DNA of 64,000 bases. It comes from Ohtaekwangia koreensis (GTDB lineage: Bacteria; Bacteroidota; Bacteroidia; Cytophagales; Cyclobacteriaceae). Both the position numbers and the translations under genes were made by a program. A model generated the notes under the pieces. That model was not told the origin of the DNA, did not search any database, and was given only the letters and a program-made list of their open reading frames with translations. The stretch spans positions 654,580 to 718,579 of the forward strand of contig NZ_FUZU01000001.1 of NCBI RefSeq assembly GCF_900167975.1. Direction: 5' to 3'. Below, in pieces: positions 43,941-62,558 of the stretch; position 1 is the stretch's first letter, and every line of letters begins with the position of its first letter.

Positions 43941-44000
43941 ATTCACTACTAACGGATATCCCTCAAACCATTACCTTCGTCCCTTGTTATAGCGAGTACA

Positions 44001-44720: not shown

Positions 44721-45409
44721 TCTTTGTACTAAGTTTACTGATATGTGCTACAACTGGCTATGGACAGAAAACCCGTTGGGTTCAAAAGAATAACCCCAAC
44801 TACGATGACAAGAAGTTAACCTATGGTTTCCTCATCGGACTCCACTCATCCACCTATCAATTAAAGTATTCGGATAGTTTTGTGACACCTGATTTCGATA
44901 CGGTGCATTCAGTTGTTCCGGCTTGGTCAGCAGGATTCTCATTGGGTTTTATTGTGAATTATAGACTGGATGATCAACTCGACATCCGCCTGACACCCAA
45001 GGTTGGTTTCTATGAGCACAGATTAAGCTATATCTATACAGATGATACACCCCGGGAAGATATTTTGGTAGAAAGCACGATGGTGGAATTGCCGATCCTG
45101 TTAAAGTATAAATCGCAGCGAAGAGGTAACATCCGGATGTATATGATTGGTGGTGTAGTGCCGTCAATTGAAGCATCAGGTAAAAAGAAAACAGAAGAGC
45201 GTCAGATCGGCATCAACAGTAGCAACCTTAGTATCGATGCTGGTTTTGGGTTCGATCTTTACTATCCGCTTTTTAAATTCTCTCCTGAAATACGATTTTC
45301 CCGTGGGCTCGTAAATCTTTTAAACGATAATGGCACTACCGATAAATATGGAGCTCCATTAAAGCGGATTAATACGAACACCATTACACTGTATTTCCTT
45401 TTTCAATAA
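44669..45409 (+). CDS. porT: PorT-family outer-membrane protein (type IX secretion)
   Basis: This 246-residue beta-barrel protein has a signal-like N-terminus (YKVIFVLSLLICATTGYGQ) and strands LTYGFLIGLHSSTYQLKYSD and AGFSLGFIVNYRLDDQLDIRL, which are PorT-like. PorT is an accessory barrel of the type IX secretion system. The position directly behind ubiE is a known conserved neighbourhood in the phylum. The start lies 52 bases inside ubiE in another frame, and the end overlaps the next start by one base (TAATG). Confidence 0.85.
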   Translation: MQNTHIWNKLYIHRYKVIFVLSLLICATTGYGQKTRWVQKNNPNYDDKKLTYGFLIGLHSSTYQLKYSDSFVTPDFDTVHSVVPAWSAGFSLGFIVNYRLDDQLDIRLTPKVGFYEHRLSYIYTDDTPREDILVESTMVELPILLKYKSQRRGNIRMYMIGGVVPSIEASGKKKTEERQIGINSSNLSIDAGFGFDLYYPLFKFSPEIRFSRGLVNLLNDNGTTDKYGAPLKRINTNTITLYFLFQ

Positions 45410-46167
45410 TGATGACGAAACGAATTGCTTTGATTACCGGTGCAACCTCTGGGATCGGTGAGGCTACGGCACGGCTACTGGCAGGTAATAACTTTAAACT
45501 TATACTCTGTGGCAGAAGAGAAGACCGGCTGCAAAGCCTAAAGCGTGAGCTTGAAGCATCAACAGAAGTAACGACTCTATCCTTTGATGTTCGTGATCAG
45601 CAAGCTATAGCAACAGCAGTAGCATCATTACCTGCAGCCTGGAAAGCAATTGATATACTTGTAAACAATGCTGGTAACGCCCATGGTTTAGATCCGATTC
45701 AAAACGGAAGTGTTGATGATTGGGATGCCATGATTGATATAAATGTGAAGGGACTTTTATATGTATCCAAGGCGGTGATTCCGGTGATGACAGAGCGAAA
45801 ATCAGGACACATTATAAACCTGGGATCGATTGCCGGTAAAGAAGTATACCCGAACGGAAATGTATACTGTGCCAGTAAATTTGCTGTTGATGCACTAACA
45901 CGCGGCATGCGGATCGATCTGAATCCCTTCGATATAAAAGTAACGTCAATTAATCCTGGATTAGTTGAAACCGAATTTTCACTTGTACGATTTAAAGGTG
46001 ACAAGGAACGGGCTGATTTGACTTACAAAGGTATGACGCCGCTCTCGGGTAAAGACATTGCCGATATAATTCTATATGTATTGCAAGCACCAGCTCATGT
46101 TCAGCTTGCGGACATCACCGTGTTGCCTTCCGCGCAAGCAAGCAGTACGGTTGTGAAGAGAAGCTAG
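45409..46167 (+). CDS. SDR-family oxidoreductase (YdfG-like)
   Basis: This 252-residue classical short-chain dehydrogenase has the cofactor motif ITGATSGIGEATARLL, NNAGNAHGLDP, the active-site Ser in LGSIAGKEVYPNG and the YxxxK in VYCASKFAVDAL. Relatives such as YdfG use NADP+ to oxidise 3-hydroxy acids (serine, allo-threonine, 3-hydroxypropionate). The substrate is not certain. It completes the ubiE-porT-SDR chain and overlaps the end of the convergent hydrolase by four bases. Confidence 0.92.
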   Translation: MMTKRIALITGATSGIGEATARLLAGNNFKLILCGRREDRLQSLKRELEASTEVTTLSFDVRDQQAIATAVASLPAAWKAIDILVNNAGNAHGLDPIQNGSVDDWDAMIDINVKGLLYVSKAVIPVMTERKSGHIINLGSIAGKEVYPNGNVYCASKFAVDALTRGMRIDLNPFDIKVTSINPGLVETEFSLVRFKGDKERADLTYKGMTPLSGKDIADIILYVLQAPAHVQLADITVLPSAQASSTVVKRS

Positions 46168-46820
46168 GTAAACTTCAAAAGTGTTTTTGAATCTATATCG
46201 TGCTTACCTTCGAATTCAACCAGAGTAGGCTCGATACCCAGTGTAGAAGATACAGATTTCATTTCAGCGAAACGGCTATCGTTTATAAATGGGTCAGATT
46301 TACCATATACCAGGAAAGTATCTTTACCTTTTAGCGTACTGTGTCCCTTCTCGAAGTTCGTATCCGGAGGGAAAACTCCGGCCCAAAGTATCAAACGCTG
46401 AAAATTTATTTTTCCATCCGTAACCCAGCGTGATGCAGTTGCGCATCCTTGAGAGAAACCGAGTATAGTAACGGGTATAGTATTAGTATTACCAATCTCG
46501 CGATGATATAGTATATTCAGATACTCCACATAATTTTCAATGTCCATTATCCGATTCTCTTTCGTCATCCATGTAGCACCAACACGATTATTGCCAGACT
46601 GCATTCGCGATGTTACGTCTTCAAGGTAAAAACGTGAAAGTCCCTCGGGAGCAATGATACAGATCTGATGCTCTTCCAGTATTTTAAACTTTTGAATAAA
46701 GTATTGGGCAAGCTGTCCATATCCATGAAGTACGATCCAGATTTGTTGTGTATCAGGAGTGATGCTTCCGATTTTATAGTAGCGTGCACGGCAATTGAAA
46801 GACAGTTCTTGTTGTTCCAT
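46164..46820 (-). CDS. Alpha/beta hydrolase (phospholipase/carboxylesterase type)
   Basis: This 218-residue cytoplasmic hydrolase has the nucleophile elbow ILGFSQGCATASRW, an oxyanion region around WIVLHGYGQLAQYF, and a candidate catalytic His in EGKHDID near the C-terminus. It is compact, like small carboxylesterases. Substrate is unknown. It is separated from the next minus-strand gene by a terminator at 46836-46868, so it has its own promoter. Confidence 0.8.
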   Translation of the reverse strand: MEQQELSFNCRARYYKIGSITPDTQQIWIVLHGYGQLAQYFIQKFKILEEHQICIIAPEGLSRFYLEDVTSRMQSGNNRVGATWMTKENRIMDIENYVEYLNILYHREIGNTNTIPVTILGFSQGCATASRWVTDGKINFQRLILWAGVFPPDTNFEKGHSTLKGKDTFLVYGKSDPFINDSRFAEMKSVSSTLGIEPTLVEFEGKHDIDSKTLLKFT

Positions 46821-46835
46821 ACAGGAAAGGTATAA

Positions 46836-46868
46836 AATAAAAAAAGCCTTCCGGGGTAGGAAGGCTTT
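46836..46868 (-). terminator. Intrinsic terminator of the secreted-protein gene
   Basis: AAAGCCTTCC (46843-46852) and GGAAGGCTTT (46859-46868) form a perfect 10-bp stem with a 6-base loop; an A-run before it is a T-run on the minus strand. It follows the gene at 46891-47310 by 22 bases. Confidence 0.88.
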
Positions 46869-46890
46869 GGTATGTTATACAGAGATCTGA

Positions 46891-47310
46891 TTAGCGCTTG
46901 AATCCAAGAGCACTACCACCACAATAGGCAGTAGAACCATCAAAGGTATATTGGATGTAATAGATACCCGTTGTGTTGCAAGGGTATGCTATAGCAGAGA
47001 TAAACTGTCCGTTTACTTTGCTGGTAGCAACTTTATTACGGTTAGAATCAAAGAGGCTTACCACGATACCATCCGTAGGTTCTTTCGCAGCACAGATGTT
47101 GATCATGTATTGAGTTCCTTTGGTGAACACATAAGAATACTCAACAAAGTCTTTTCCTCCTTTTTCAATTTTATAGCTCTTTAAGAAATTGAAGCCAGTT
47201 GCTAATTTAGGAATGCAGAGGTTGCTCATGGCTTCAGAGTTGCACTGACCGATAACCTCTAATGTGCTTAGAACGCAAACGGTAAGAACAATTAATATTA
47301 ATTTTTTCAT
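46891..47310 (-). CDS. Small secreted protein of unknown function
   Basis: This 139-residue protein has a signal peptide (residues 1-21, ending EVIGQ) and a mature part with six or so Cys residues (CNSEAMSNLCIPKL, INICAAKE, AYPCNTTGIYYIQY, TAYCGGSALGF). The beta-rich layout suggests a small sandwich stabilised by disulfides, perhaps carbohydrate- or lipid-binding. No family is recognised. It follows the lipoprotein gene by 24 bp and precedes a terminator, so it is the last gene of the long minus-strand block. Confidence 0.6.
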   Translation of the reverse strand: MKKLILIVLTVCVLSTLEVIGQCNSEAMSNLCIPKLATGFNFLKSYKIEKGGKDFVEYSYVFTKGTQYMINICAAKEPTDGIVVSLFDSNRNKVATSKVNGQFISAIAYPCNTTGIYYIQYTFDGSTAYCGGSALGFKR

Positions 47311-47334
47311 AGGGCAAAATAAATTATACTTGGC

Positions 47335-48234
47335 TTATGCTATTATTTTGTTTCTGATAGAAGACGTTGCTGCGCTGATATTGGCGATATCCTCGGGTGT
47401 AATTTCAATGGTACTGGTACTGTTATCCTTAATTACCATTACACCGTCAACAACTTCGAAAGTAGATTCTTTATAGGTATATGTAATCTTTACTTTATCA
47501 TATATCTTCTTCAACTCTTCCATGTCTTTCAACAATGATGCCATATTCTGATCTGATTCTTTATAGAAAGAAAGAAGCAGCATGATGTTTTCAAGAATGA
47601 TTTTTTGCTCGCCTATAGTTTCTTTTAATTGAGCGTTATCAGGATTAGCAGCAGCTACACCACACGTAATGTGAAGAGCTTCCAACCATCCACCAGTCAG
47701 GAACAACACACTTAAATTTGCACGATCCTGAGTTTGCAGGTAGTGATTGATTGTGTTGAAGTTCTGTGTAGTGATCAATAAAAGTGAATCGAGATTTTTA
47801 CTATTCGTAGCTAACCGTCCGATCGTTTCAATATCGAAGAACTGACCGATGCTTAATCCATTTGCCAACTCTTTAATAGAGGCCATGTATTTAACACCGT
47901 CTTGATTCTGCTCGTATATATTCGTGTAGCCAAGATCAGTACCATAAATTCCAAGGTTCAACGCCTTTTTATAGTTGCTGTTATACTTGGATGTATTGTC
48001 CGCTGAGTTAAGAAAGCTCGCATTGTATTTCTTGCCAGACTCTTTCAGTAAAACTGAAATTTCCAATGGACTTGGTATTTGCTGGAGGATGTCACCAATA
48101 ACCTCAGAAGAGATGGTCGGTCCATCAGTAGCAGCAGTATCCAATGTATCAGCAAAAATAGGGTCGTCCGTTTTTTTACCGGATCCGCAGGCGGTAAAAA
48201 GTGCCAGGATCAGCCCGATAATTAGTATTCTCAT
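47335..48234 (-). CDS. Lipoprotein of unknown function
   Basis: This 299-residue lipoprotein has lipobox LFTACGSGKK (Cys16). The residue after the Cys is Gly, without an acidic run, so it probably remains in the periplasm. The rest is largely helical (SVLLKESGKKYNASFLN, QDRANLSVLFLTGGWLEALH, LEELKKIYDKVK-like segments). It may be associated with the ABC transporter gene 68 bp upstream. No family was recognised. Confidence 0.6.
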   Translation of the reverse strand: MRILIIGLILALFTACGSGKKTDDPIFADTLDTAATDGPTISSEVIGDILQQIPSPLEISVLLKESGKKYNASFLNSADNTSKYNSNYKKALNLGIYGTDLGYTNIYEQNQDGVKYMASIKELANGLSIGQFFDIETIGRLATNSKNLDSLLLITTQNFNTINHYLQTQDRANLSVLFLTGGWLEALHITCGVAAANPDNAQLKETIGEQKIILENIMLLLSFYKESDQNMASLLKDMEELKKIYDKVKITYTYKESTFEVVDGVMVIKDNSTSTIEITPEDIANISAATSSIRNKIIA

Positions 48235-48302
48235 AGATATAAAATTATACAGTTACAAAGTTAAAAATTAAGCATTCCCTGCCAAAAAGTTACGTTGTTG
48301 CT

Positions 48303-51300
48303 TTAATTCTTTTTCTTGGCAGATCCTTTAGATTTCCCAGGGATCCCGTCAAATGAATTGATCAGCTTGCGTAATAATTCGAAGTATAAAGTGATGTACA
48401 GGCCTATCGTCATAAACCAGATCACCAGTATATCGAATGTATAGGTACCAATTGATAATCCGAATACCTTCTTTACGGGAGCAAAAAATGGAGTACGATA
48501 ATTGAGTATTCCTTCTGCTTTTGGTTCAATAAAAACCGGATTAATTTGTTGGATCAACTCACCATTATATTCAATGATGCGCTCTTTTTCGTTCACATTC
48601 TTCACAAGGTCGGCCAGACTCTCGTTGTAGTAATTATCCTTTAGCGTATTCAGGTTGTTACCTTCTTTCTCAATTTTAGCGAAGGAAGCCTCACGCAAGG
48701 CCACTGCTTTATTATAGGTGCCCTGATAGAATTTCTTATACGCCGCAAAAAAGTCTTCGAGCTTTTTATTAAAGGTTGGTGTGAAATCTTTCAGTGTCCA
48801 CGGAGTTGCAAGTTCTTTTTCAATTCCTTTTTTAAAGAAGTCGTCTTGGAGTGTAGACTGAATGACATACAGATCTTTCTGCAGAATCTGTTTTATAGAA
48901 TCACTTTTCTCATTGATATTATCTGCTATAAATCGGCGTTTCTTCTCCATCTCATCTACGAGGAATGAAGAGTGAAAATCAGACTGCGCTTCAAGTCTGT
49001 CGAAATTATAGAAAGGCTCTTCGTATGAATTGTTCTTAAACTGATATACTGCCATCGCCTCATACGCCCAGCGCGATGCCATCATGTCGGCTACCACCGG
49101 AACTTTACCTTTGGTACTGATAAGATCGTTAAGCTTATCGAAGTTAAAGAGTAATCCGCTTAAGATCATTTGTGGAATCAGCAACAGTGGAATCATTACA
49201 TATACCGTTACAGCTGAATTGAACGCAGATGAAATGTTTAGTCCCAATACACTGGCAAAGCAAGATGTTGTAAATAACACAAGCCAGAAGGGAAGTAGCA
49301 TACTCCATTCAATCTCCAGGATCAGATTGCCAATCAATACAAATGTAAACGTCTGTATAGCAGAGAGTGTAAAAAGTATAGTGAGTTTAGACATCAGGTA
49401 ACTACTCCAACTCAAATTCAGGAATGATTCCCTCCGAAGTATTTTACGGTCGCGAATGATCTCTTCCGCACTAACTGTTAGCCCCATGAATAAGGCTACA
49501 ATAATGCTCATGAGCATAAAGGCCGGTATATTTTCGTTGAAGCGGAAAATATACTCTTTGCCGCCCGGAGCGCTTTTATACTTAATGATGAATGCCAGGA
49601 TAAGCGCCAGTAACGGAGCCTCTAACAGGTTGATCAGCAAGTATTGTTTATTGCTGAGTTTAGCCAATGTATCGCGCGTAGCGAAGATCACCGTTTGTTT
49701 GATCTTGCTGGGAAGTGTGAGGGAGTGAGGAGGTTCCTCTTTTATATCCTCAACCTTTGTTATTTTGAAACGCTCCGTATATAGATCGTACCATTGTGGT
49801 GGTGATATCTTTCGCTTGTTCGTTGGCTGTCCGTATTCATCCACCACCTTGGCTTCAATGATGTTGAAGATCTGTTCGGGATTAACATTACCACACGTTT
49901 CACACTGACCACGGCTACTATCTACCTGGTGCGTGGATTTCTTGAAGTATGTTACGGCTTCAACCGGAGGGCCATAATAAGCAGGATATCCACCGGTGTC
50001 CATGATCACCATTTTGTCGAACATCTTGTATATATCCGATGATGGCTGGTGAATAACCACAAAGATCAGCTTACCCTTTAGTGACAATTCTTTCAATAAG
50101 TCAATTACGTTTTCGGAGTCACGTGAGGAAAGACCGGAAGTAGGTTCATCAAGGAAGAGAATGGCGGGTTCACGAATTAACTCCAACGCTATATTCAGAC
50201 GCTTACGCTGACCACCACTGATGGTTTTATCTAACGGATTGCCTACACGAAGATCTTTGCGCTGATCAAGGCCGAGGTTTTCCAGCACTTCCATTACACG
50301 CTTGTGTAGCTGGTCTTCGGTAAAGTGAGCAAAGCAAAGCTTCGCGTTATAGTATAAGTTTTCATATACGGTGAGTTCCTCGATCAGAAGATCATCCTGA
50401 GATACATACCCTATAACTCCGTGTATTCTGTCTTTTTCTGTGTTGATATCAAAGCCATTGATTAGTATCTGGCCTTTGGTAGGCTCTACTAATCCGGCCA
50501 TAACATTTAGTAGTGTAGTTTTACCGGCACCACTCGCACCCATTATACCGATAAGTTTTCCGGGGCCTTCTGCAATTAATACATTTCGTAAACCTATAGC
50601 GCCATTTGGAAACTTCAGTTCATCGATGATAGCATTGAATGAGAGTTTAGTTGTTTTTAACTCTTCATTGTAGTTGGCAACCAGATCGCTATAGTATAGC
50701 GCATCACCGGCTTGTGTTTTGATCGTGCTTCCATGCGAGAAGAGATATACTCTGTTGGGTTGCATGGTAAAGCCGTTCAGTATATTGAGCTCATCACCGT
50801 TATATTTGGTGAAGTACATTTCAACACTGCGTACACGCATAAAAGCCAGGTTACCCTGTATATGGCCGTGTACATGTTTATATAGTTTGCCTTCTTCCGC
50901 TTTTTGATTTGAGTTGAGCAGAAGAATATCCGCGAAGTCTAATGATAAAGTGTCGTTGGAGCGAACGAAGCTCTCAATGAGATTATATTCGTCCTGGATA
51001 ATATTAAAAACGGTAGAGACCGTGTTGATGATCTCCATACGCTGCGGACTGAAGTTTTTATCTGTACTTACCAGTTCGAGCAGCTTTATTAATACAACAA
51101 CTTTTTGTTTTTGTGTAAGCGTTTTGTTGATCTTCTTACAGATACCGAGTGTCTTAACGGAGTCTTTTACAGAGGTAAGTTTCTTTTTGCCATCCTCCTC
51201 GTCATCTGCTTTTCCGTAGCCGGAGAATTGATCATACAGATCCAAATATTCCTTGACGGAATCTTGGTCAAGTTCTGTTTGAAAAAAGTTAATGACGTAC

Positions 51301-51386
51301 TGTCGTTCGCGTTCAGTAACTCCGCCATCCTGTTTCGTGATAATTGCAAAAAGTTGTGTGAGGGCTTTGAGTATTTCTTCACTCAT
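48303..51386 (-). CDS. Very large ABCG-type ABC transporter with TerB-like N-terminal domain
   Basis: This 1027-residue protein begins with a TerB-like helical domain (about 1-150) and a region resembling an FHA-like beta domain (about 150-250, containing QPNRVYLFSHGSTIKTQAGD). The ABC ATPase (about 255-500) has Walker A GIMGASGAGKTTLLN, Q-loop YVSQDDLL, signature TISGGQRKRLNIALEL and Walker B AILFLDEPTSGLSSRD. An ABC2-type permease part (about 590-1010) has six or so helices, including LLEAPLLALILAFIIKY. A large soluble loop of about 200 residues sits between helices five and six. Related half-transporters export lipids or glycans; the substrate here is unknown. The stretch after the ATPase holds a Cys pair (GQCETCGN). 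Confidence 0.75.
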   Translation of the reverse strand: MSEEILKALTQLFAIITKQDGGVTERERQYVINFFQTELDQDSVKEYLDLYDQFSGYGKADDEEDGKKKLTSVKDSVKTLGICKKINKTLTQKQKVVVLIKLLELVSTDKNFSPQRMEIINTVSTVFNIIQDEYNLIESFVRSNDTLSLDFADILLLNSNQKAEEGKLYKHVHGHIQGNLAFMRVRSVEMYFTKYNGDELNILNGFTMQPNRVYLFSHGSTIKTQAGDALYYSDLVANYNEELKTTKLSFNAIIDELKFPNGAIGLRNVLIAEGPGKLIGIMGASGAGKTTLLNVMAGLVEPTKGQILINGFDINTEKDRIHGVIGYVSQDDLLIEELTVYENLYYNAKLCFAHFTEDQLHKRVMEVLENLGLDQRKDLRVGNPLDKTISGGQRKRLNIALELIREPAILFLDEPTSGLSSRDSENVIDLLKELSLKGKLIFVVIHQPSSDIYKMFDKMVIMDTGGYPAYYGPPVEAVTYFKKSTHQVDSSRGQCETCGNVNPEQIFNIIEAKVVDEYGQPTNKRKISPPQWYDLYTERFKITKVEDIKEEPPHSLTLPSKIKQTVIFATRDTLAKLSNKQYLLINLLEAPLLALILAFIIKYKSAPGGKEYIFRFNENIPAFMLMSIIVALFMGLTVSAEEIIRDRKILRRESFLNLSWSSYLMSKLTILFTLSAIQTFTFVLIGNLILEIEWSMLLPFWLVLFTTSCFASVLGLNISSAFNSAVTVYVMIPLLLIPQMILSGLLFNFDKLNDLISTKGKVPVVADMMASRWAYEAMAVYQFKNNSYEEPFYNFDRLEAQSDFHSSFLVDEMEKKRRFIADNINEKSDSIKQILQKDLYVIQSTLQDDFFKKGIEKELATPWTLKDFTPTFNKKLEDFFAAYKKFYQGTYNKAVALREASFAKIEKEGNNLNTLKDNYYNESLADLVKNVNEKERIIEYNGELIQQINPVFIEPKAEGILNYRTPFFAPVKKVFGLSIGTYTFDILVIWFMTIGLYITLYFELLRKLINSFDGIPGKSKGSAKKKN

Positions 51387-51515
51387 AGGTTAGATATAGC
51401 AATTTTATAAAGGTATAAAAAAATATCGGTTACCAGTCATTCTGAACACCACTTGCCGGGTCCTTTTAGTGACTGATAACCGATTAGTTATTAGGAGGTT
51501 ATCCCCTTAATGTAA

Positions 51516-51878
51516 TCAGTACGTCTTAAACTCAAACGGTATCTCTACCAGTTCTGAAAACTCTTGCCCGGCCTCTTCCATATCTTCATCATCCTCGTGG
51601 AAATACCACAGGATTTTCATGCTCTTAATGTCTTCGAGCGCAGACAATACATCCAGGATAAGCTTGGATGATGCTGTGTTAAAATACTCGAGTTTGAAAA
51701 CAAACTCCGTTGAAGGATTGGCATCGGCACTATACTTCTCAATCCATTCTAATACTGGGCGGTAAAACTCAGCAGAGTCTTCAGGCAATGAGCGACCGGA
51801 GATTTCAAAGATTCCGTTTTTCTTATCGAGGATTATTTTCGGGGTGTCTTCTGTTCCTTCCAGATTCAAAATTTCCAT
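51516..51878 (-). CDS. SiaC-like regulatory phosphoprotein (DUF1987)
   Basis: This 120-residue STAS-like protein belongs to the DUF1987/SiaC family. The phosphorylation region LEYFNTASSK places Thr68 at the position of the site reported for Pseudomonas SiaC. It probably switches partners depending on phosphorylation by the SiaB-like kinase (gene just upstream) and dephosphorylation by the SpoIIE protein. In Pseudomonas the partner is the diguanylate cyclase SiaD; no GGDEF protein is seen here. It is 32 bp from the kinase gene. Confidence 0.85.
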   Translation of the reverse strand: MEILNLEGTEDTPKIILDKKNGIFEISGRSLPEDSAEFYRPVLEWIEKYSADANPSTEFVFKLEYFNTASSKLILDVLSALEDIKSMKILWYFHEDDEDMEEAGQEFSELVEIPFEFKTY

Positions 51879-51910
51879 GGTATAAAGCTATTTATATTAT
51901 TCTAAATCAA

Positions 51911-52459
51911 TTATTCGTTATCTCTAGGCACATTCACTTTCAAGCAAAAGAAGCAGTACTCAGTGTTCATCTCAGGGAATTCAAATTCCAATTTTTCGCC
52001 TGATTTTCTGGCCATATCAACAAAGCCTAGTCCCGCACCACCTTTATCAGAGATTGTTGTATTCTTAATGATCTCTTTGTAAAGATCCTTCAAACCATCT
52101 TTGTCAAGGCTATTGATACGGTCCAATGCGTCCTTCAACTTGCTAACATTCTCCTTACGGATCGGGTTGCCGGTCATGATACAGTAACGATTGGATTCCT
52201 TGCCGATCAGAAAGATCGCTGCATGGCTTCTTATCTGTCCGTCTACCAATTCATCGCTATGCTTCACAATATTCTGGAGCGCCTCAACCATCACATTGAA
52301 TACCTTGCGCTTGATGCTGGACTCCTCTCCGGAAGAATCAAGGTTTCGCTCGGCCATGGACAGTATAGATTTGGTGCTCTCCTGGGTAAAATCACCCTGA
52401 AACACCAGAATCAGTTTCTGCGACATCATGGTGCGGTGCAGGTCATAAATAAAATTCAT
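51911..52459 (-). CDS. SiaB-like protein kinase (DUF6272)
   Basis: This 182-residue protein has an HATPase-type kinase fold. The N-box is VMVEALQNIVKHSD, with the ATP-lid region DKGGAGLGFVDMARKSGE. This is the SiaB family, which phosphorylates SiaC. The order SpoIIE phosphatase, SiaB, SiaC on the same strand matches siaA-siaB-siaC. The upstream neighbour's stop is 104 bp away. Confidence 0.85.
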   Translation of the reverse strand: MNFIYDLHRTMMSQKLILVFQGDFTQESTKSILSMAERNLDSSGEESSIKRKVFNVMVEALQNIVKHSDELVDGQIRSHAAIFLIGKESNRYCIMTGNPIRKENVSKLKDALDRINSLDKDGLKDLYKEIIKNTTISDKGGAGLGFVDMARKSGEKLEFEFPEMNTEYCFFCLKVNVPRDNE

Positions 52460-52563
52460 GCGTCAGAAGATTAGATTAAAATTGATTGAGATTCACTAAG
52501 TTATAATTTATTTTATTATTCACCCTTTACACCAAAAAGCGAAAGGTTAATTCTTTTACAGTT

Positions 52564-55500
52564 TTAAAATTTTATCCCGATCAACAACACGTCATCGGTT
52601 TGTTTATGATCGCCTCTCCAGCCTTCCCACTCTTCATCAAAGATAGTTACTGCATCGTTCATAGACGATGTATGAACTCGTTCGATTATTTCCCGTACAC
52701 GCTTCGGCCCGAACTTGCGTCCTTCCGGTCCACCAAACTGATCAGGGAAACCATCTGAACTAAAGTAGATAGAGTCACCTTCATCCAGCTTAACGTAGGT
52801 GTTGGTAAAGTTAGTTTGGTTCTTAAATATACCACCTCCTATCGGGAATTTATTACCTTTCACTTCCTCCATGTTACCACCCTTCATAATATATAGCGGG
52901 CGGTGAGCACCGGCATACTCTACTTCGCGGGTAGCCATGTTAATCTTACAAAGCGCGATGTCCATACCATCTTTTGTGGTGGAATCTTCATCCTGACGCA
53001 ATGTTGTCGTAACACCTTCATCGAGTAAGTCGAGAATTTTTCCGGGTTCTGTAATCTTACGACTTCTAACGATGTCATTTAACAGGAAGTATCCGATCAA
53101 TGATAACAAAGCTCCTGGAACACCGTGACCAGTGCAGTCAACAGCAGCAATAAAGATTTCTTCTTTGATCTGTACAAACCAAGGAAAATCTCCGGATACA
53201 ACGTCACGTGGTTTGTAAAGTATAAATGAATCAGGTAAAGCACGGTTGATCACTTTGCTATTCGGAAGTATCGCTGTCTGGATACGTTTCGCATAGTTTA
53301 TACTTTCTGTGATCTTCTTATTCTTATTCTGGATTTCAAGTTCGATCATCTTCCTTTCGGTGATGTCGTGAGAAACTACCAGTACTGATTCCAGTTTGTT
53401 AGACTCATCAAATTCAGGAATAGCGTTTACCTGCATGATACGCTTGCCCATCTCTGAAGGGAAGTCCATTTCAGTATCTGCTTTCTGATTGGTAGCATTT
53501 ACCTGCTCCACTACCTTTAACCATCCTTCCAATACCGATCCATCGAGTTCGACATCCTTCACTTTCTTATTGAGGAAGAATGCAGGTTGCTTGCCGGTAT
53601 ATTCTTCAATCACCGGGTTAATATAGGAGATCGATTCACCTTCCAGACGTGTGATAAGGTCAAGCGAGTTTTCGGAGAGCGCCTGCATCTTACTGCGCAT
53701 CCGTTGTTCAAGCTCAGCTCTTCTCTTCTCTGTGATGTCGCGAGAGTTAAGTATATATCCGTGGATCGCGGCATTGGACATAAAGTTTGTTCCTGTGGAT
53801 TCTATCCAAATGAAGCTTCCATCTTTTGTGCGATACTCGTATTGTGTAGTAACTTTTTCATCCGGGCTCTCGGTAAGTTTCCGGAAGAGATCTTTGAAGT
53901 TTTCGCGATAATCAGGATGTACCTTATCGATATCGCTTTTGCCGATCATCTCTTTCTGTCCATACCCAAGAATGGTTTCTACAGAAGGAGATATATAGCG
54001 TATACTTTCATCTTCTTCGTAGATCGTAATTACCTCTGACGCATTCTCAAGCAGAAGCTGCATCCGCTTTTGTGTGCGATTTACTTCTTCGATCTGCTCT
54101 TCGAGTTTTTGATTTGAACGTTGCAGTTCCTCTTGCGTAGCCTGCATTTCTTCTGCATTCTGACGAAGTACTTCCTGCTTTTCCTTCAACTCATTACTCA
54201 TCTCCTGCGATTCGGCAAGGAGTATACGTGTGCGTTCGTTTACCTTAATGTTAAAGATGGTACGGGCCAGTATAAGTGAAAGCTCCTGCACGAATTTTAC
54301 CTGTGATGGATCAAATTTCCGGAAGCCTGCAAATTCAAGTACACCGTATACTTCTTCGTTGGTAATGAGTGGAACAATCAATACGCATGTAGGGCGTTGA
54401 TCGCCAAGTATACCCGAAGTTATAGTTACATAATCCTCTGGAATTTCAGTTCGCATTACAGCATCTTTTTCTGCTGCTGCTTGTCCGATAAGACCTTCTG
54501 CGAACTTGAACTTTGCTTTTAAATACTTCTTACGGTTGTATGCATAGCTTGCACGCATTTCTATTACAGGAGGAGAATCTTCATCGTTCACCACATAGAA
54601 AGCTCCTTGTATAGCACCGATCTTTTCAAGTATAAATTTGATAACATCTTCACCGAGTGCATCGATCGAGTCGTGCATACGCAGAATCTCACTGATCTCA
54701 GCAACACCGCGTACAATCCAGTTACGTTCCTTATCTCTTCTTTCATTTTCAATCAGGTTGTTACGCATGTCGATAAGCGAAAGACCGAGTATATCATTTT
54801 CACTTGCAGGCTTGAACTCGGTATCATATTTACCTTCTCCAATACGTTTTGCAAACTCTGCATTGCCACGAAGGGTTTGTACAAGCTCATTTACTTTAGC
54901 ACCCATCTGCCCGAATTCATCGTTGCTTGTTTGATCTGTGCTTTCCGGTAACACACCTTGTGCAACAAGACTCACGGTATTTCGCATGGCATATAGAGGC
55001 CGTGTAAGCGAGCGTGAAAAAAGCATTGAAAGAAATACGGCTAGTGCTACGATGCAAAGTCCGGCATATAGAAATGTACCCATTAATCCCTTTGCGTCTC
55101 CATTGGCTTCGTCAAGATCCATCTTGGCGATAAGGGCCATGTTGTTGCCAACCTTGCGTGCTGTTTGCAGGATCGGTTTACCGTCAAGGTCTTTGCCTAT
55201 GGAAGCGACTTTCTTTCCTTCTACTGCATCGACAAAGGAGCTTATGAATGGCTCATTCGGATTATATAGTATAATAGCAGATGATGTATCTCCGCGTAAG
55301 GGACTAACAATGGCTACTTTTTTAGAAGCAGGATCAACACGTCCCAATAATGATTCTCCAGTTTGTCCAAGCCCATGGTAATTCTTAAGAATTTTATACG
55401 CAGAATTCAGATTCAGTTTTACAATGATAAATTGCTGGTTTCCACTGCTTGTGTTAAAAGAACCAGCTGCATAGGATATATAATTCTTTTTAGACTTGTC

Positions 55501-56031
55501 GCGAAAGATGGATGTAAAGTGTACTCCGTTCTTGGCGCGGTCAAATGTGATCCCATCGGGATCGATAAAATTTCCTTTTACTTCAGTATCTGTTGAAGCT
55601 ACAACAGCACCTGTAGGAGACGTGATTATAATTGCATCTACATCAAAGATAAATTTCTGTTCTTCCAGAAAGCCAGCGAGACTGCCATCAGTCGCGGAAG
55701 ATTCACCTACTGAAGCTGTGGTGGTATCTTCCTCTGCAGGAGGGCCTCCCATCATTGACATCATGTCCATGCCACCGGAAGCAGGTGCGCTTTCACCTTT
55801 CTTTAAGGTCTCTGAGTTTTTTAATACTTCTATAGTATTTGCTGCCTTGTCAAAGTAAGTATTGAGATAGGCTGCACGATTATCGGCCAGGGCATTGAGT
55901 GTAGCAGAAAATTTCTCCCGATTAGTCTTCAGGTTGTAATCGTAACTAAAAAAACTGATCGCGGCTACGGCCACGAGCGACACCGCGAGTATTAAAATTG
56001 TAATCTTGGTGCTGACGTTTATGCTTTTCAT
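52564..56031 (-). CDS. Sensor SpoIIE-family phosphatase (Cache-like/HAMP/GAF/PAS/PAS/PP2C), SiaA-like
   Basis: This 1155-residue membrane protein has TM1 (residues 9-29), a periplasmic sensor domain (about 30-315, probably Cache-like), TM2 (about 318-340), HAMP (about 340-395), a GAF domain (about 460-600), a coiled-coil (about 605-665) with EEMQATQEEL (627-636), two PAS domains (about 660-780 and 790-905) and a SpoIIE-type PP2C phosphatase (about 930-1155; DCTGHGVPGALLSL, DDVLLIGIKF). The periplasmic part has an unusual Met-rich insert at residues 85-98. It would dephosphorylate the SiaC-like protein in response to an extracellular signal. The gene follows the GAF gene by 22 bp. Confidence 0.87.
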   Translation of the reverse strand: MKSINVSTKITILILAVSLVAVAAISFFSYDYNLKTNREKFSATLNALADNRAAYLNTYFDKAANTIEVLKNSETLKKGESAPASGGMDMMSMMGGPPAEEDTTTASVGESSATDGSLAGFLEEQKFIFDVDAIIITSPTGAVVASTDTEVKGNFIDPDGITFDRAKNGVHFTSIFRDKSKKNYISYAAGSFNTSSGNQQFIIVKLNLNSAYKILKNYHGLGQTGESLLGRVDPASKKVAIVSPLRGDTSSAIILYNPNEPFISSFVDAVEGKKVASIGKDLDGKPILQTARKVGNNMALIAKMDLDEANGDAKGLMGTFLYAGLCIVALAVFLSMLFSRSLTRPLYAMRNTVSLVAQGVLPESTDQTSNDEFGQMGAKVNELVQTLRGNAEFAKRIGEGKYDTEFKPASENDILGLSLIDMRNNLIENERRDKERNWIVRGVAEISEILRMHDSIDALGEDVIKFILEKIGAIQGAFYVVNDEDSPPVIEMRASYAYNRKKYLKAKFKFAEGLIGQAAAEKDAVMRTEIPEDYVTITSGILGDQRPTCVLIVPLITNEEVYGVLEFAGFRKFDPSQVKFVQELSLILARTIFNIKVNERTRILLAESQEMSNELKEKQEVLRQNAEEMQATQEELQRSNQKLEEQIEEVNRTQKRMQLLLENASEVITIYEEDESIRYISPSVETILGYGQKEMIGKSDIDKVHPDYRENFKDLFRKLTESPDEKVTTQYEYRTKDGSFIWIESTGTNFMSNAAIHGYILNSRDITEKRRAELEQRMRSKMQALSENSLDLITRLEGESISYINPVIEEYTGKQPAFFLNKKVKDVELDGSVLEGWLKVVEQVNATNQKADTEMDFPSEMGKRIMQVNAIPEFDESNKLESVLVVSHDITERKMIELEIQNKNKKITESINYAKRIQTAILPNSKVINRALPDSFILYKPRDVVSGDFPWFVQIKEEIFIAAVDCTGHGVPGALLSLIGYFLLNDIVRSRKITEPGKILDLLDEGVTTTLRQDEDSTTKDGMDIALCKINMATREVEYAGAHRPLYIMKGGNMEEVKGNKFPIGGGIFKNQTNFTNTYVKLDEGDSIYFSSDGFPDQFGGPEGRKFGPKRVREIIERVHTSSMNDAVTIFDEEWEGWRGDHKQTDDVLLIGIKF

Positions 56032-56053
56032 AATACGCGTTGGACGCTTCTGT

Positions 56054-56818
56054 TTAGGCTCTTGTTGAAATTTTATCCGCTATTAACTCTGCTGATTCTT
56101 CTACAAACTTCCGCTGGTCTTCTGTCAGTGCAGTGAACGATGCAATCTCCACGATGCCCAGCACGCGGTCTTTCTTTATGGGTACAATCAAAAGATATTT
56201 AGGAGAGGCACTTCCTAATCCTGAGATGATCTTTACATATCCTTGCGGTACATCATCAACGTATAGCGTGCGCGCACCGGCTGCTGCTTGTCCGATAAGC
56301 CCTTCTCCAAATTCGTAACTGATTACGGTGCTCTCACCAATGGTAAGTGCATATCCGTTTTTCAATTCTACTTTGCGTTTGCCATCTTCTTCTTTCACTA
56401 TATAGATAGCACCCTGGCCAGCTTCGAGTTGCTTGCATACTGCTTGTAAACCTGCCTGAAAAATTTCCTTTTCAGTGCTGGCTTGACTCAGATTGCTTTT
56501 AACCGTATCCAGGCTAATAGAAGTTTTTCCTGCTTGTTCTGCCGCTTCACGCTCTGCAGACGCAGCATCCACAATTCTGTCGCGCATTACTATAATTTCT
56601 TTTTTATAGCGCAATGCAGAGAGTAGTGTAACTGCTCCCAATATGAATGTGAGAATGAGTATACTATATATGCTGATAAAATCAGACTGATAACCATCCG
56701 TCAGGCGTAAATTAGCCGGAAGCGAATAGATCAGATATAGGGAAACACCAATGCCTGCAGTGAAGAGCACTGCCAAGATCAGGTTCAGGTAATAGCGATC
56801 GTTAAATAGACCTGTCAT
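56054..56818 (-). CDS. Membrane GAF-domain protein
   Basis: This 254-residue protein has two N-terminal transmembrane segments (about 12-32 and 46-66), a short coil, and one GAF domain (about 105-254). The signature EFGEGLIGQAAAGARTLYVD and the later SGLGSASPKYLLIVPIKK are shared with the GAF domains of the two large sensors in this block. It overlaps the cheB start by four bases. It may be a small sensor input for the CheB/SpoIIE pathway; ligand is unknown. Confidence 0.8.
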   Translation of the reverse strand: MTGLFNDRYYLNLILAVLFTAGIGVSLYLIYSLPANLRLTDGYQSDFISIYSILILTFILGAVTLLSALRYKKEIIVMRDRIVDAASAEREAAEQAGKTSISLDTVKSNLSQASTEKEIFQAGLQAVCKQLEAGQGAIYIVKEEDGKRKVELKNGYALTIGESTVISYEFGEGLIGQAAAGARTLYVDDVPQGYVKIISGLGSASPKYLLIVPIKKDRVLGIVEIASFTALTEDQRKFVEESAELIADKISTRA

Positions 56819-57408
56819 CGATATTGTTTATCTAGTTCTTTTAAAAACTCTACAATTTGGTCAACCTTTAGCACATGATCAATTTTAGTTGCTGCCAGAG
56901 CCGCACGCGGCATGGTATCGATCATACACTCGGAAGGTTCCTGTACTATAGTTAATCCACCTCGGTCGTGTATATTTTTCATTCCCAGCGCACCGTCTTT
57001 ATTTGCACCTGAGAGAAGAATTCCGATCAGTTTCTCTTTATACACAAAGGCGCTTGTGCCTAATGTTATATCAATTGCTGGTCTGGAATTGTTGATCATC
57101 TCTTCTGTTGAAAGGGCGAAGTAAAGTCCAAGTTCCACTGACATATGATAATTGGCCGGAGCCAGGTATACACTGCCTTTTTTTATATTCTCTTTATCAT
57201 GGGGTTCCGTAACCTGCACAACGCTTTTAATTGAAAGGGCTTCCACAAAACCATTGCGCACATGCTTCAGCCTGTGCAAGCACATGATTATAGGTAACGG
57301 GAAACCTTTAGGCAACTGTGACAGGATTTTTACTACACCCTGGAAGCTGCCTGCTGACCCACCGATAACAACGGCTTTATAGCTGTTATTTAGGTTGTAC
57401 TTACTCAT
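56815..57408 (-). CDS. cheB: CheB-type protein-glutamate methylesterase, no receiver domain
   Basis: This 197-residue protein consists only of the CheB catalytic domain. The Ser-His-Asp triad is Ser18 (VIGGSAGSFQGV), His45 (CLHRLKHV) and Asp138 (SGANKDGALGM). A normal CheB has an N-terminal receiver of about 130 residues, absent here, so activity is not controlled by CheA phosphorylation. It lies between cheR and the GAF gene. Its substrate is unknown; the GAF/HAMP sensors encoded in this block are candidates. Confidence 0.9.
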   Translation of the reverse strand: MSKYNLNNSYKAVVIGGSAGSFQGVVKILSQLPKGFPLPIIMCLHRLKHVRNGFVEALSIKSVVQVTEPHDKENIKKGSVYLAPANYHMSVELGLYFALSTEEMINNSRPAIDITLGTSAFVYKEKLIGILLSGANKDGALGMKNIHDRGGLTIVQEPSECMIDTMPRAALAATKIDHVLKVDQIVEFLKELDKQYR

Positions 57409-57428
57409 TCGTAAAAGGCAAACTTCAC

Positions 57429-58250
57429 TTAATCTTTTATTTTCTTATAAATCTTCTCTTCGTTGTTCACCACGATGAAGCGGTTCGCATAGTCGCACCA
57501 GATCAGCGATTCTTTCGAACCAATAGCCAGGTACCCGTACTTGAATAAGCTCTCATGGAATTTTTTTAATACCTCGTTCTGCAAAGCCTGATTGAAATAG
57601 ATCATCACGTTACGGCATAGCACAAGGTCGAATTTGTTAAAGATGTCTCCAGTTACCAGGTCATGCCTGCGGAACGAAACATTCATCAGAAGATCTTTAT
57701 TGAAAACAGCGTTGCCGTTTTCTTCGCGGTAGTAGTCTTTGAAACTTCGTGTACCCTGAAAGCGGATATAGTTCTTTTCGTTGAGCTCCATATTCTTTAT
57801 TGGATATGTAGCCAGCTTCGCTTTATCAAGGATGTTTACATCAAGGTCGGTAGCAATAAGGGTAACGTCATGAAGTATACCCATCTCCTTCAACATGATA
57901 CACATCGAGACAACCTCTTCTCCGGAGGAGCAGCCTGCATGCCATATTTTAAATTGCTTATGGTTAAGCATGATGGCCGGGATGATCTCTTCGCGCATAA
58001 TGCGCCAGAAGCTCGGGTCACGGAACATCTCTGTTACGTTTACCGTAAGCTCATCCAGAAACTCATTGATGAACGAAGGTTGATCCACCAATTTTTTTAA
58101 AAGTGCATCAACGGAAAGTTTCTTCAATTCCATGATGCGGAGTACGCGCCTTTTAAAAGAAGACATCGCATAATTCCTGAAGTCGTAATTATACTTCTGG
58201 TAGATTAGCTCCGAGATTCTTTTAAGGTCAGCAATGTCGATATCGAGCAT
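57429..58250 (-). CDS. cheR: CheR-type protein-glutamate methyltransferase
   Basis: This 273-residue SAM-dependent methyltransferase has the CheR N-terminal helical domain (about 1-75) and the catalytic domain with IWHAGCSSGEEVVSMCIMLK, IATDLDVNILDKA, LVLCRNVMIYFNQALQ and YGYLAIGSKESLIW. It is a stand-alone enzyme with no C-terminal pentapeptide-binding TPR. It precedes cheB by 20 bp. No MCP is present in the window to be methylated. Confidence 0.93.
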   Translation of the reverse strand: MLDIDIADLKRISELIYQKYNYDFRNYAMSSFKRRVLRIMELKKLSVDALLKKLVDQPSFINEFLDELTVNVTEMFRDPSFWRIMREEIIPAIMLNHKQFKIWHAGCSSGEEVVSMCIMLKEMGILHDVTLIATDLDVNILDKAKLATYPIKNMELNEKNYIRFQGTRSFKDYYREENGNAVFNKDLLMNVSFRRHDLVTGDIFNKFDLVLCRNVMIYFNQALQNEVLKKFHESLFKYGYLAIGSKESLIWCDYANRFIVVNNEEKIYKKIKD

Positions 58251-58540
58251 GAACAGGTCTTTATAAAAAGGAACCCAAAATTAATTTCTCTGGTAAACTA
58301 CCGGATGGATTTGATCATTAAATCTTACATATGTTCAAAAGCATCTGTAGCACACAATTTTCTAAGTAAATCAAATTAACTAAATCGTCCTAATTAGTTG
58401 ATAAAAGGGGACTAAAAACTTTGAAAAAACGAATGGCAGGTCAAACACTGGAATTCGAAGTTACGCAATGCAAAGGCTAGTGAGTAATGTATATCCATCT
58501 ACTTCAAGACACCTTTACTTCCCGTCTTTCGGGCCATTTA

Positions 58541-60421
58541 TTACTTTAATTTACGATTAAGTTCTTCTTGTGTAATCTCCAGTGCTTTCAAATTTATTTT
58601 CAGCGTTTGGACAACCTCTTCTGCAATTTGCCAGTCATCGGCTTTCTCAGGTTTTTGAGAAAGTTGTTTTTCAAGGGCGTTAATCTTCTCCAGATGATCG
58701 CGTTCTTTGCGAATAAAGTCTGATGTTACCTCTTCTAATTTATCTGTAGTAACAGATGAGTTAACAGATTGTTGTTCTAACTCCTGTATACGTTCAATGT
58801 AGCCACGTTCTTTACGAGCAACTTCTTCTTGTGTGGCTTGTAGTTCCTCCATGTTCTGACGCATCTCTTCTTCCTGCGCGCGCATTTGTTCCGTCTGCGT
58901 CTGAAACTGTTCAATCAAATCTTTATTCTTCTCAGCAGCTTTAACCGATCCAATTGTGGAGGCAATGGTCTCTCCAAGTTTTTCTACGAATGCTATTTCG
59001 TGTGGCGCATATTCGTTAAAAGAAGCAAGCTCAACAATACCATAAATCTGAGTGTCGACTTTAAGTGGGACAATGAGGATAGACCTAGGGTTGGCGTCTC
59101 CTAAACCGGAAGTGATACGAATATACTCATCCGGAAAGTTCGTGTAATAATTTGTTTCTCCTTCAAGAAAAGTCTGTCCAAGAAGCCCTTCACCTAATTT
59201 GATCTTTCGTGTTTCATATTTCTTGATATCAAATGCAAACAACGATACCAGTTCGAGGTGCTTATTATACTCGTCATCATCATTGTAAATATAGAGCGCA
59301 CCCTGATTTGATTTGGTATACTGCGCGAGTGCGGCAATAACCTTATCACTTAAAGCAACAATGTTGTCATTCGAAGAGCGAAGAATGTCAACAAACTTAG
59401 CCAAGCCTTCATTGGCCCATTGACGCTTGCGTTCTTCTTCGTTCAATGATTTTAATTTGCCTTGCATGTCTATTAAAGAATCAGCAAGTTTATTCTTACC
59501 ATGATTATAGCGGCTGTCGAGCGATGCCTTGTAATCCATATCCAGATTGCCCTGTCCAATGGCAGTTACAAAGTCTGTGGCATCTTTTAAATTTTCAAGT
59601 GTCTCATTGATCTGCTCGGAGAGTTTACCAATTTCATTGGGAGCCGTGTTTGTAACCTGCTGGTGATTCGCTGTACTTAAGCGAAGTTTGTTGATAGGCT
59701 CAAGGACATATTTGTTGAATGCAAAGAAGATCAGCGTAAGCAAGGCAACATCAAAAATGATGATTGCAATTACCCAGCCGTGTACAGAAGATTTTTCTCT
59801 CCATACTTCTGTCTCCAGGTCGTCAAAGAGATTGTCGTACCATTGAGAAAGCGTAAGCGATAAACTTTCTTCCTTCAAGGCGGCAGCCGCCAACATTTTG
59901 GCTGACACAACCGGTTTAACTTCTGTAGGAGTTGCAACAGCAGGTGTGCTTGTGGTAGAGTCCGTAGTACTTTGTACCGGAACCTGAGCTTGGTCCGTTG
60001 TTGATGGAGTCTTATGTTGAAGCGCAAGAATATCGCGCACTGAAGCTTTATACTCTTCCCAATACTCTTTTAAATTGTCGTATGAAATTTTAGGAAGACG
60101 TGAAAGTGGTTTAAGAATCACATCGGTTCTATCTACGCGTCCGCCTTTTCCTAAAATCTCCAACAGGTGTTCCTGGTGAACAATTTTAGCTTCAATCTCT
60201 ACGGTAAGATCTTCATTATGGGCCAGGTGGCGTTGCACCAGCAAAGAAATTTGCTGACTTGAAAGTTCTGCACTGCGGGTAAAATCCAACTTCTGCTCCA
60301 CCTCATCGAGCACGTCAATGCGATGTTGAATAATATAGTATTCTGCGAAGTATATCAAAAACATTACAACGAGGAGATAGATACCGATCAGTCGCAGAGA
60401 AGTATTGCGCAGAAATTTCAT
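58541..60421 (-). CDS. Membrane HAMP/GAF sensor with long C-terminal coiled coil
   Basis: This protein of about 626 residues has TM1 (about 10-26), a periplasmic domain with a Ser/Thr/Val/Pro-rich segment (about 140-172), TM2 (about 214-236), HAMP (about 237-290), a helical linker, a GAF domain (about 350-490) and a coiled coil to the C-terminus (about 495-626) with EEEMRQNMEELQATQEEV (517-534). There is no kinase, cyclase or MCP signalling domain, so the output must pass through protein contacts. The frame extends three codons to a TTG at 60430; the ATG at 60421 is preferred. It lies 290 bp upstream of cheR with its own likely promoter. Confidence 0.8.
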   Translation of the reverse strand: MKFLRNTSLRLIGIYLLVVMFLIYFAEYYIIQHRIDVLDEVEQKLDFTRSAELSSQQISLLVQRHLAHNEDLTVEIEAKIVHQEHLLEILGKGGRVDRTDVILKPLSRLPKISYDNLKEYWEEYKASVRDILALQHKTPSTTDQAQVPVQSTTDSTTSTPAVATPTEVKPVVSAKMLAAAALKEESLSLTLSQWYDNLFDDLETEVWREKSSVHGWVIAIIIFDVALLTLIFFAFNKYVLEPINKLRLSTANHQQVTNTAPNEIGKLSEQINETLENLKDATDFVTAIGQGNLDMDYKASLDSRYNHGKNKLADSLIDMQGKLKSLNEEERKRQWANEGLAKFVDILRSSNDNIVALSDKVIAALAQYTKSNQGALYIYNDDDEYNKHLELVSLFAFDIKKYETRKIKLGEGLLGQTFLEGETNYYTNFPDEYIRITSGLGDANPRSILIVPLKVDTQIYGIVELASFNEYAPHEIAFVEKLGETIASTIGSVKAAEKNKDLIEQFQTQTEQMRAQEEEMRQNMEELQATQEEVARKERGYIERIQELEQQSVNSSVTTDKLEEVTSDFIRKERDHLEKINALEKQLSQKPEKADDWQIAEEVVQTLKINLKALEITQEELNRKLK

Positions 60422-60532
60422 AATCCCCAAGTAAACTAAAATACCCTAAACGCCAAAACGGCTGTATGAAAAAGGGTGAAAGTGAAAAATTGAAGAAGTG
60501 GTTTCCTGATCAAAACAGTATTTCAAATCAGA

Positions 60533-60997
60533 TCATAAACTGGCACTTGTGAAGCCAAAGGGAAGCAATGATAAAGCAGAAGGCGCTTTGATCCATTGAT
60601 GCTGCTGGCTCTGCATAATGATCTCAATGGGTGTTTTCTGGCGGTTTTCAAACTCCAACAACACCTGACGGCATTCGCCACAGCAGGTAGCGGGAGTTAA
60701 TTCACTCTCGCCACGCCTTTGCGCTGTCACGGCAACTTTAAGAATCGTAACATTTGGATAAAGTGAGTACGCTGAAAATAATGCTACTCGCTCCGCACAC
60801 AACCCGGAAGGATAAGCAGCATTCTCCTGATTCATGCCTGTGATGATGGAACCATCGTCCAGTAGCGCAGCAGCACCAACCATAAAGTTAGAGTACGGTG
60901 CATAGGCATGTGCGAGCGCTTCCTTCGCCTTTAAGACAAGTTCTTTTGAATGATCGTCCAGGTCACTGAGTTGATTAACAATTATAAATTCTTTCAT
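60533..60997 (-). CDS. cdd: Cytidine deaminase
   Basis: This protein of about 154 residues deaminates cytidine to uridine in pyrimidine salvage. The zinc site is visible in NQENAAYPSGLCAERVALF (Cys and catalytic Glu) and PATCCGECRQVLLEF (two Cys). AYAPYSNFMVGAAALLDDG is the family N-terminal signature. The ATG at 60997 (MKEFIIVNQ) is preferred over a TTG at 61021. Confidence 0.94.
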   Translation of the reverse strand: MKEFIIVNQLSDLDDHSKELVLKAKEALAHAYAPYSNFMVGAAALLDDGSIITGMNQENAAYPSGLCAERVALFSAYSLYPNVTILKVAVTAQRRGESELTPATCCGECRQVLLEFENRQKTPIEIIMQSQQHQWIKAPSALSLLPFGFTSASL

Positions 60998-61138
60998 AGT
61001 GAGCGTCTTTAAAAAAATCAAAAGTTAGTGAAAAAGCGATAGCAAAATGCATCACGCACAAAGCATATCGTTCCTACTTTCGGCTTTATGTTTTCTCCTG
61101 TAGTTTTACACGTTGCAGTATGGCTACATTTAAATTTT

Positions 61139-61146
61139 TAGATTTG
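61139..61146 (+). promoter_or_regulatory. Possible -7 promoter box upstream of the saccharopine dehydrogenase gene
   Basis: TAGATTTG matches TAnnTTTG exactly and lies 5 bp before the ATG. The nearest TTG (61113-61115) is 23 bases upstream, longer than usual. A transcript from here would be almost leaderless, so support is weak. Confidence 0.2.
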
Positions 61147-61151
61147 ATTTC

Positions 61152-62486: not shown

Positions 62487-62493
62487 AGAGAAA

Positions 62494-62540: not shown

Positions 62541-62558
62541 TCAATATAGAAAGTATAC

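Follow-up and report, generated by a model that had tools for sequence, protein, structure and literature searches.

A 64,000-nucleotide stretch of the Ohtaekwangia koreensis genome (hereafter the window; host genome 7.24 Mb in 6 contigs) carries a run of nine minus-strand genes encoding a CheR-type methyltransferase, a CheB-type methylesterase, a membrane GAF protein (GAFm), SiaA-, SiaB- and SiaC-like partner-switch proteins, an ATP-binding cassette (ABC) protein, a lipoprotein-like protein and a small secreted protein. This nine-gene block is conserved in environmental Bacteroidota far beyond chance. We propose, in a judgement that is evenly balanced, that the block forms the centre of a sensory pathway that resembles chemoreceptor systems and is based on a SiaABC partner switch, with output through an ABCG-type exporter. 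An earlier note, made from the letters of this DNA alone, had described ten open reading frames (ORFs) in minus-strand order, the tenth being a sensor upstream of cheR; the ORF list confirmed all ten at the positions it gave. Domains were assigned by Pfam and NCBIfam profile scans of the ORFs with a reporting limit of E ≤ 0.001; Glx denotes glutamate or glutamine.

58541–60430, minus strand: GAF receptor without an output domain; hydrophobic segments at about residues 10 and 215, GAF at 359–493, Glx-Glx coiled coil around residues 514–536
57429–58250, minus strand: CheR-type methyltransferase (PF01739 and CheR_N)
56815–57408, minus strand: CheB-type methylesterase, 197 amino acids, esterase domain only, receiver domain absent
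56054–56818, minus strand: GAFm, two hydrophobic segments and a GAF domain; overlaps cheB by 4 bp
52564–56031, minus strand: SiaA-like receptor phosphatase with HAMP, GAF, Glx-Glx coiled coil (about residues 622–646), PAS domains and SpoIIE/PP2C; hydrophobic segments at about residues 4 and 315
51911–52459, minus strand: SiaB-family kinase (SiaB_fam_kinase)
51516–51878, minus strand: SiaC phosphoprotein (PF09345, 134 bits)
48303–51386, minus strand: ABCG-type half-transporter, putative SiaC target (TerB, ABC_tran, ABC2_membrane)
47335–48234, minus strand: lipoprotein-like protein, mostly helical
46891–47310, minus strand: small secreted protein with an N-terminal hydrophobic segment

The spacers from cheR to the secreted-protein gene measure 20, −4, 22, 104, 32, 129, 68 and 24 bp. 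The receptor gene lies 290 bp upstream of cheR and is a variable member of the neighbourhood. Its product, described earlier as a HAMP/GAF sensor, retains the GAF assignment, while the Pfam scan found no HAMP domain in it at the reporting limit; the HAMP domain of SiaA scores 24.5 bits against a Pfam cut-off of 25. The lipoprotein and the secreted protein had no Pfam or NCBIfam match at the same limit.

To follow the block across genomes, we used an alignment of 17 SiaC orthologues as the anchor. It matched 52 of 118 genomes of the family at E ≤ 1e-63, the next match lying at 2.5e-50, and the surroundings of all 52 were compared by tblastn. The order CheR–CheB–GAFm–SiaA–SiaB–SiaC–ABC–lipoprotein–secreted protein, on one strand, was found in 47 of the 52; in the remaining five (L097, L107, L108, L112 and L127) it is intact up to the contig edge that cuts it. 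Among the 47, a contig end truncates CheR in one, and one carries an extra copy of the secreted-protein gene. Conservation of the order elsewhere, a check set by the earlier note, is thereby borne out, and the kept order rules out accidental adjacency of these genes. With the ABC protein as the anchor, the full run was recovered in 47 of 80 named loci; the other 33 comprise 15 truncated close to a contig end, 16 that look reduced, and two (L195 and L198) in which CheR to ABC is present and the last two genes are missing. Counts of reduced loci below omit the 15 cut loci and include L179, where the sequence upstream of SiaC is only 593 bp long. Two metagenome-assembled genomes (MAGs) hold two loci each (L195 and L198 versus L183 and L174), one a SiaC–ABC–lipoprotein–secreted set and the other a CheR-to-ABC set without the last two genes.

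Among the matches listed, the closest block belongs to a MAG titled uncultured Bacteroides sp., with an ABC protein 99% identical, and the closest named isolates are Parachryseolinea, Pseudochryseolinea, Chryseosolibacter and Chryseolinea, at 80–85% identity. Pairwise distances of eight block proteins correlate over 76 distinct loci (r of 0.61 to 0.92). Joint inheritance would produce such correlation, but so would vertical descent of any set of genes. Alignments A1–A3 hold 17 of 18 block loci, with L059 omitted.

The block enzymes look active, their catalytic residues being invariant in the rows examined; these row counts, like those for the SiaC T68 context and the SiaA motif below, may hold one genome twice. 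CheR keeps G106, E111 and D135, which we take to be S-adenosylmethionine-site residues, in 78 of 78 rows, and CheB keeps S18, H45 and D138, presumably its catalytic triad, in 79 of 79. In SiaA, D948, D965, D1146 and D1147 are invariant (84/84 rows), four aspartates with presumed catalytic roles, and SiaB is invariant at E59 and N63 (90/90). The SiaA C-terminus has SiaA as its best model match and 6k4e as the best Protein Data Bank (PDB) match of its phosphatase. SiaB matches NF038262 at 181 bits (cut-off 85). SiaC aligned with the SiaC structures 6kko and 6k4f, placing its T68 on the threonine of the Pseudomonas aeruginosa phosphopeptide LLYLNTSSIK, and T68 is invariant in all 94 rows above the score cut. 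In P. aeruginosa this threonine is phosphorylated by SiaB and dephosphorylated by SiaA (PMC7647112).

Two further kinds of SiaC gene were observed. A second SiaC type lies near the block on the minus strand beside SiaB in L189, L192, L196 and L205, with serine replacing Thr68 (FNSSSVKQ). Orphan block-type SiaC genes of about 60% identity occur at L086:11548-11913 and L131:5992-6360, with no SiaA, SiaB or ABC gene detected in the 20 kb compared.

The SiaABCD system of P. aeruginosa consists of the PP2C phosphatase SiaA, the kinase SiaB, the phosphoprotein SiaC and the diguanylate cyclase SiaD. The block shares with it a SiaA-type PP2C C-terminus, a SiaB-family kinase, a SiaC with the same Thr68 and the siaA–siaB–siaC order. 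It differs in the sensor half of SiaA, which is GAF–Glx coiled coil–PAS, in having CheR and CheB upstream and an ABCG transporter downstream, and in falling below the NCBIfam equivalog cut-offs (SiaA 210.5 versus 700, SiaB 86.4 versus 225 and SiaC 87 versus 150 bits). Unlike SiaABCD, it has no detectable SiaD: the earlier note saw no GGDEF protein in the window, and we found none in the whole genome at E ≤ 0.001, with the same search positive in 8 of 14 control genomes. Output through cyclic-di-GMP made by a GGDEF protein is thus ruled out.

SiaA and the first sensor have in common a segment after the GAF domain, LRQNAEEMQATQEEL / MRQNMEELQATQEE; their GAF–coiled-coil regions are homologous, with 36% identity over 232 residues. 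GAFm does not contain this coiled-coil motif. A strict motif expression matches 90 of 100 SiaA rows. Genomes were then searched at the DNA level for EE[hydrophobic]xAT[Q/E]E, with the pattern read backwards as the control. The host genome gave 19 matches versus 0 reversed, spread over 16 proteins; 14 of these are encoded away from the block. Across the 52 block genomes there were 417 matches, with at least two in 51 genomes, a median of 8 and a maximum of 22 (SiaA's own included), whereas the 66 block-less genomes of the family gave seven, at most one each. The reversed control gave five in all 118 genomes, three of them in the block-less 66. In a phylum sample of 395 genomes, the four with a block SiaC had 19, 3, 4 and 4 matches, and five of the same family without it had none.

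Within 51 motif segments, some overlapping, Glx occupies positions −14 (96%), −13 (82%), −7 (96%) and −6 (94%), counted from the start of the pattern. Because these positions lie outside the pattern imposed by the search, Glx-Glx pairs do recur every seven residues. Methylation sites of methyl-accepting chemotaxis proteins (MCPs) are such pairs, the Escherichia coli consensus being E-[E/Q]-x-x-A-[S/T]. FrzCD carries methyl groups at E168, E175 and E182; two of these residues belong to EQ and EE pairs, and the third belongs to an HE pair (PMC2535941). CheR has been reported to act on the non-MCP protein PhoP too, at an arginine (PMC8546571).

The proteins carrying the motif look like receptors. 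From 40 regions with motif matches we obtained 42 motif ORFs (region L237 yielded none), of which 41, with the near-duplicate L232 omitted, were domain-scanned and aligned (A6) together with the window sensor. Exactly two hydrophobic segments, about 115–305 residues apart and with the motif further on, are present in 26 of the 42 motif ORFs; one short ORF (L218, 223 amino acids) has no hydrophobic segment. All 42 scanned receptors (SiaA not counted) contain GAF, 11 contain HAMP, many PAS and a few Cache or CHASE3. Among the 21 families matching them at E ≤ 0.001, there was no histidine kinase, MCP, GGDEF, SpoIIE, receiver or DNA-binding domain. The sensors noticed earlier in the window belong to a set of receptors without output domains that extends across the genome and tracks the block, which goes beyond the earlier note. 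In one receptor (L249:3197-6364), four Glx-Glx motif copies lie about 165 residues apart and no hydrophobic segment is predicted.

Chemotaxis genes proper lie elsewhere in the host genome. Genome-wide we found 7 CheR, 3 MCP and 6 CheW-domain matches. The MCP and CheW-domain matches fall in three places (one on contig C5, two on C6), each with an MCP, two CheW-domain frames and a CheR. One CheW-domain frame per place is 575–672 amino acids long and presumably CheA, whose own family was not searched. These places lie on another contig or, at the nearest, about 870 kb from the window, in agreement with the earlier note, which had seen no MCP, CheA or CheW protein in the window; all six CheW-domain matches fall in these three places, which rules out a neighbouring MCP/CheA operon as the owner of the block. 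Since these places are distant and no GGDEF protein was found, the partner of the block is neither an adjoining chemotaxis operon nor a SiaD-type cyclase. Like MCP–CheW–CheA–CheR–CheB pathways, the block has CheR and CheB catalytic domains and several receptors per genome. Most of these receptors have two hydrophobic segments, and they bear a coiled coil with Glx-Glx pairs at heptad spacing, the putative methylation sites. It departs from them in that the receptors carry GAF in place of the MCP signalling domain, that CheA, CheW and CheY are absent from the block, that CheB has no receiver, and that the presumed output is a PP2C phosphatase.

The family also contains a second Che–Sia arrangement, in which the partner switch ends an apparent chemotaxis operon. 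In genus g15, ParA, CheY, CheA, CheW-like, MCP-like, CheR, CheD-like, CheB, CheY and CheC-like genes lead straight into siaA–siaB–siaC (L132:414-13378 and L133:186-13158; labels by eye from sequence starts and by tblastn, not by domain scan). As in the block, CheR, CheB and SiaA–SiaB–SiaC lie in one strand run. The g15 loci differ in their CheA-, CheW-, MCP-, CheD- and CheC-like genes, in a 365-residue CheB with a receiver-like start (by eye), in a SiaC only 53% identical, in lacking a block-type ABC gene after SiaC, and in having 0 motif matches in both genomes.

We then consider the output end of the block. The ABC protein, noted earlier as a giant half-transporter with TerB, does carry TerB (residues 8–136), and its description can be refined to an ABCG fold with an N-terminal TerB: a beta region (about 150–235) precedes the ATPase, the domain order is ATPase–ABC2 membrane, and a long helical stretch (about 793–930) precedes the last membrane helix. 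Its structural model (mean predicted local distance difference test score, pLDDT, 81.5) matches ABCG2 and ABCG5/8, with a Foldseek E of 1.6e-23 to ABCG2 and a TM-score of 0.75 by target length against 8p7w. ABCG2 and ABCG5/8 share its ATPase and ABC2-type membrane domain; the block protein differs from them in its N-terminal TerB, its beta region and its long helical stretch, and in having a lipoprotein and a secreted protein as partners. For the lipoprotein, the structural model (pLDDT 76) had no convincing fold match in the PDB (best Foldseek E 0.13). Alignments A4 and A5 hold 64 rows each, drawn from 141 ABC and 127 lipoprotein BLAST matches.

SiaC stays with this transporter when other genes are missing: it lies directly before ABC in 14 of the 16 reduced loci, L173 and L211 being the exceptions. 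Thr68 is present in all 107 SiaC rows that adjoin ABC and have SiaB, or SiaB and SiaA, nearby. In the ten rows that adjoin ABC with SiaA and SiaB undetected nearby, the context YFNTASSKLILD around position 68 is changed in every case (absence judged by BLAST with the window proteins, with two contig-cut rows set aside). Outside the order, in genome G162 (L088), SiaB–SiaC face a convergent ABC gene and lipoprotein gene; a 138-residue ORF between the latter two resembles the secreted protein by eye, and no CheR matched anywhere in that genome. DUF1987 (SiaC) proteins have been suggested to commonly modulate adjacent proteins (PMC8457831). An ABC paralogue (48%) with its own upstream lipoprotein (29%) lies at G000:C6:1880489-1883527 (L087:7490-11548), with Sia genes undetected in 20 kb.

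Taken as a pathway, the parts may work as follows. Membrane receptors, built of an extracytoplasmic part, sometimes HAMP, GAF and the coiled coil, lack a Pfam output domain and, through the GAF–coiled-coil module they share with SiaA, would pass their signal to SiaA, probably by assembling together. CheR would methylate, and the receiver-less CheB demethylate, glutamates of the Glx-Glx coiled coil, giving adaptation. The phosphatase SiaA and the kinase SiaB would set the phosphorylation of SiaC Thr68, and SiaC could bind or release the adjacent ABCG-type transporter, whose part in envelope export may also involve the lipoprotein and the secreted protein. Lipid or envelope export of some substrate is a guess from the modelled ABCG fold. 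The earlier interpretation is partly supported overall: the idea that methylation tunes the sensors gains from the conservation of the Glx-Glx coiled coil in both the sensors and SiaA, and the idea that SiaC acts on the transporter gains from the reduced loci, with methylation and contact themselves still suppositions.

Several observations weigh against this pathway. Ten of the 100 SiaA rows contain only near variants of the motif, and most receptor genes of the host genome are unlinked to the block. No C-terminal CheR-binding pentapeptide is common to the 42 motif ORFs (by eye), although this tether is not universal in MCPs. The CheB of the block lacks the receiver that normally gives feedback, and eight of the ten SiaC rows without detected SiaA or SiaB keep Thr at position 68 (two have Ile). 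Only one of the three host MCPs, L040, has a clear heptad run of this kind under the strict pattern (the other two gave 0 and 1 matches), and Glx-rich heptads can serve coiled-coil packing alone. Among the remaining 386 genomes of the phylum sample, 27 have one motif match each versus 8 reversed-control matches; therefore some single matches are conserved genes of other kinds. The chief weakness is that the co-occurrence of motif and block is uncorrected for descent and may be inflated by shared ancestry; as the block genomes are possibly one clade, it is not independent across genomes.

The coiled-coil motif might instead be a docking or packing surface for receptor–SiaA assembly, with CheR and CheB modifying GAFm or an unlinked protein. 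Conservation beyond the Glx pairs (Q-N, L-L and R), as an interface would have, and the missing common tether speak for this; the seven-residue Glx-Glx spacing, which is that of MCP methylation helices including the FrzCD sites (PMC2535941), and the fixed membership of CheR and CheB in the block make it unlikely in our view. That the block CheR and CheB act in trans on classical MCPs, their location being historical, we consider very improbable. The three MCP loci with CheW-domain proteins could supply substrates, but each has its own CheR, the block is retained across many genera, and in genome G300, where a search of the whole genome found a single CheR (its place not listed), the block holds a CheR.

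Shared ancestry of one clade, with no shared function, could also account for the co-occurrence of motif and block, as the contrast lies inside one family with phylogeny uncontrolled. We doubt that this is the whole explanation: the coiled coil is nearly invariant in receptors with 15% mean column identity (the search pattern imposed some of this invariance), and because the motif proteins lack a Pfam output domain of their own, they would need a partner, held by the same genomes. A comparably small chance falls to SiaC having an unlinked target, as other partner switches do, with the ABC, lipoprotein and secreted-protein genes merely co-expressed. ABC–lipoprotein pairs without Sia genes (L087 and L093) and four more SiaC genes elsewhere in the host genome favour it, set against the position of SiaC in the reduced loci and the convergent arrangement in G162.

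Two other candidate signals were noted around the block.

46843–46868, minus strand: terminator-like hairpin of 10 pairs with a T tract, directly 3′ of the last block gene
58276–58283, minus strand: −7-like element TAATTTTG, 25 bp upstream of cheR

On the opposite strand the hairpin has a weaker T-rich tail. TAATTTTG resembles the Bacteroidota −7 consensus; matches to this pattern are no commoner in the window than chance predicts, and the sigma-70 and TAnnTTTG promoter scans both stayed at that level. Known RNA elements in 44000–64000 were rejected, none reaching gathering scores. Cytidine-deaminase-like and saccharopine-dehydrogenase-like genes (60533–62486; names by eye) adjoin the block in many genomes and also several reduced loci.

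Returning to the proposed sensory pathway, we suggest, more tentatively and at somewhat under even confidence, that bacteria would have in it a chemosensory network of a second type. In each genome a number of methyl-accepting GAF receptors, with neither kinase nor MCP domain, would converge on the one PP2C phosphatase SiaA, which bears the same coiled coil, CheR and CheB would provide adaptation, and the output would be a threonine-phosphorylation switch on an ABCG exporter and not CheA/CheY or cyclic-di-GMP. Open-access titles and abstract openings, with subscription journals mostly outside this coverage, contained no description of CheR/CheB with SiaABC or of such receptors. If the proposal is true, SiaC proteins would gain an output in a bacterium where no GGDEF protein is detectable, and stand-alone CheR and CheB would gain a substrate family other than MCPs. 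It would also explain the receptor-like proteins without an output domain in these genomes.

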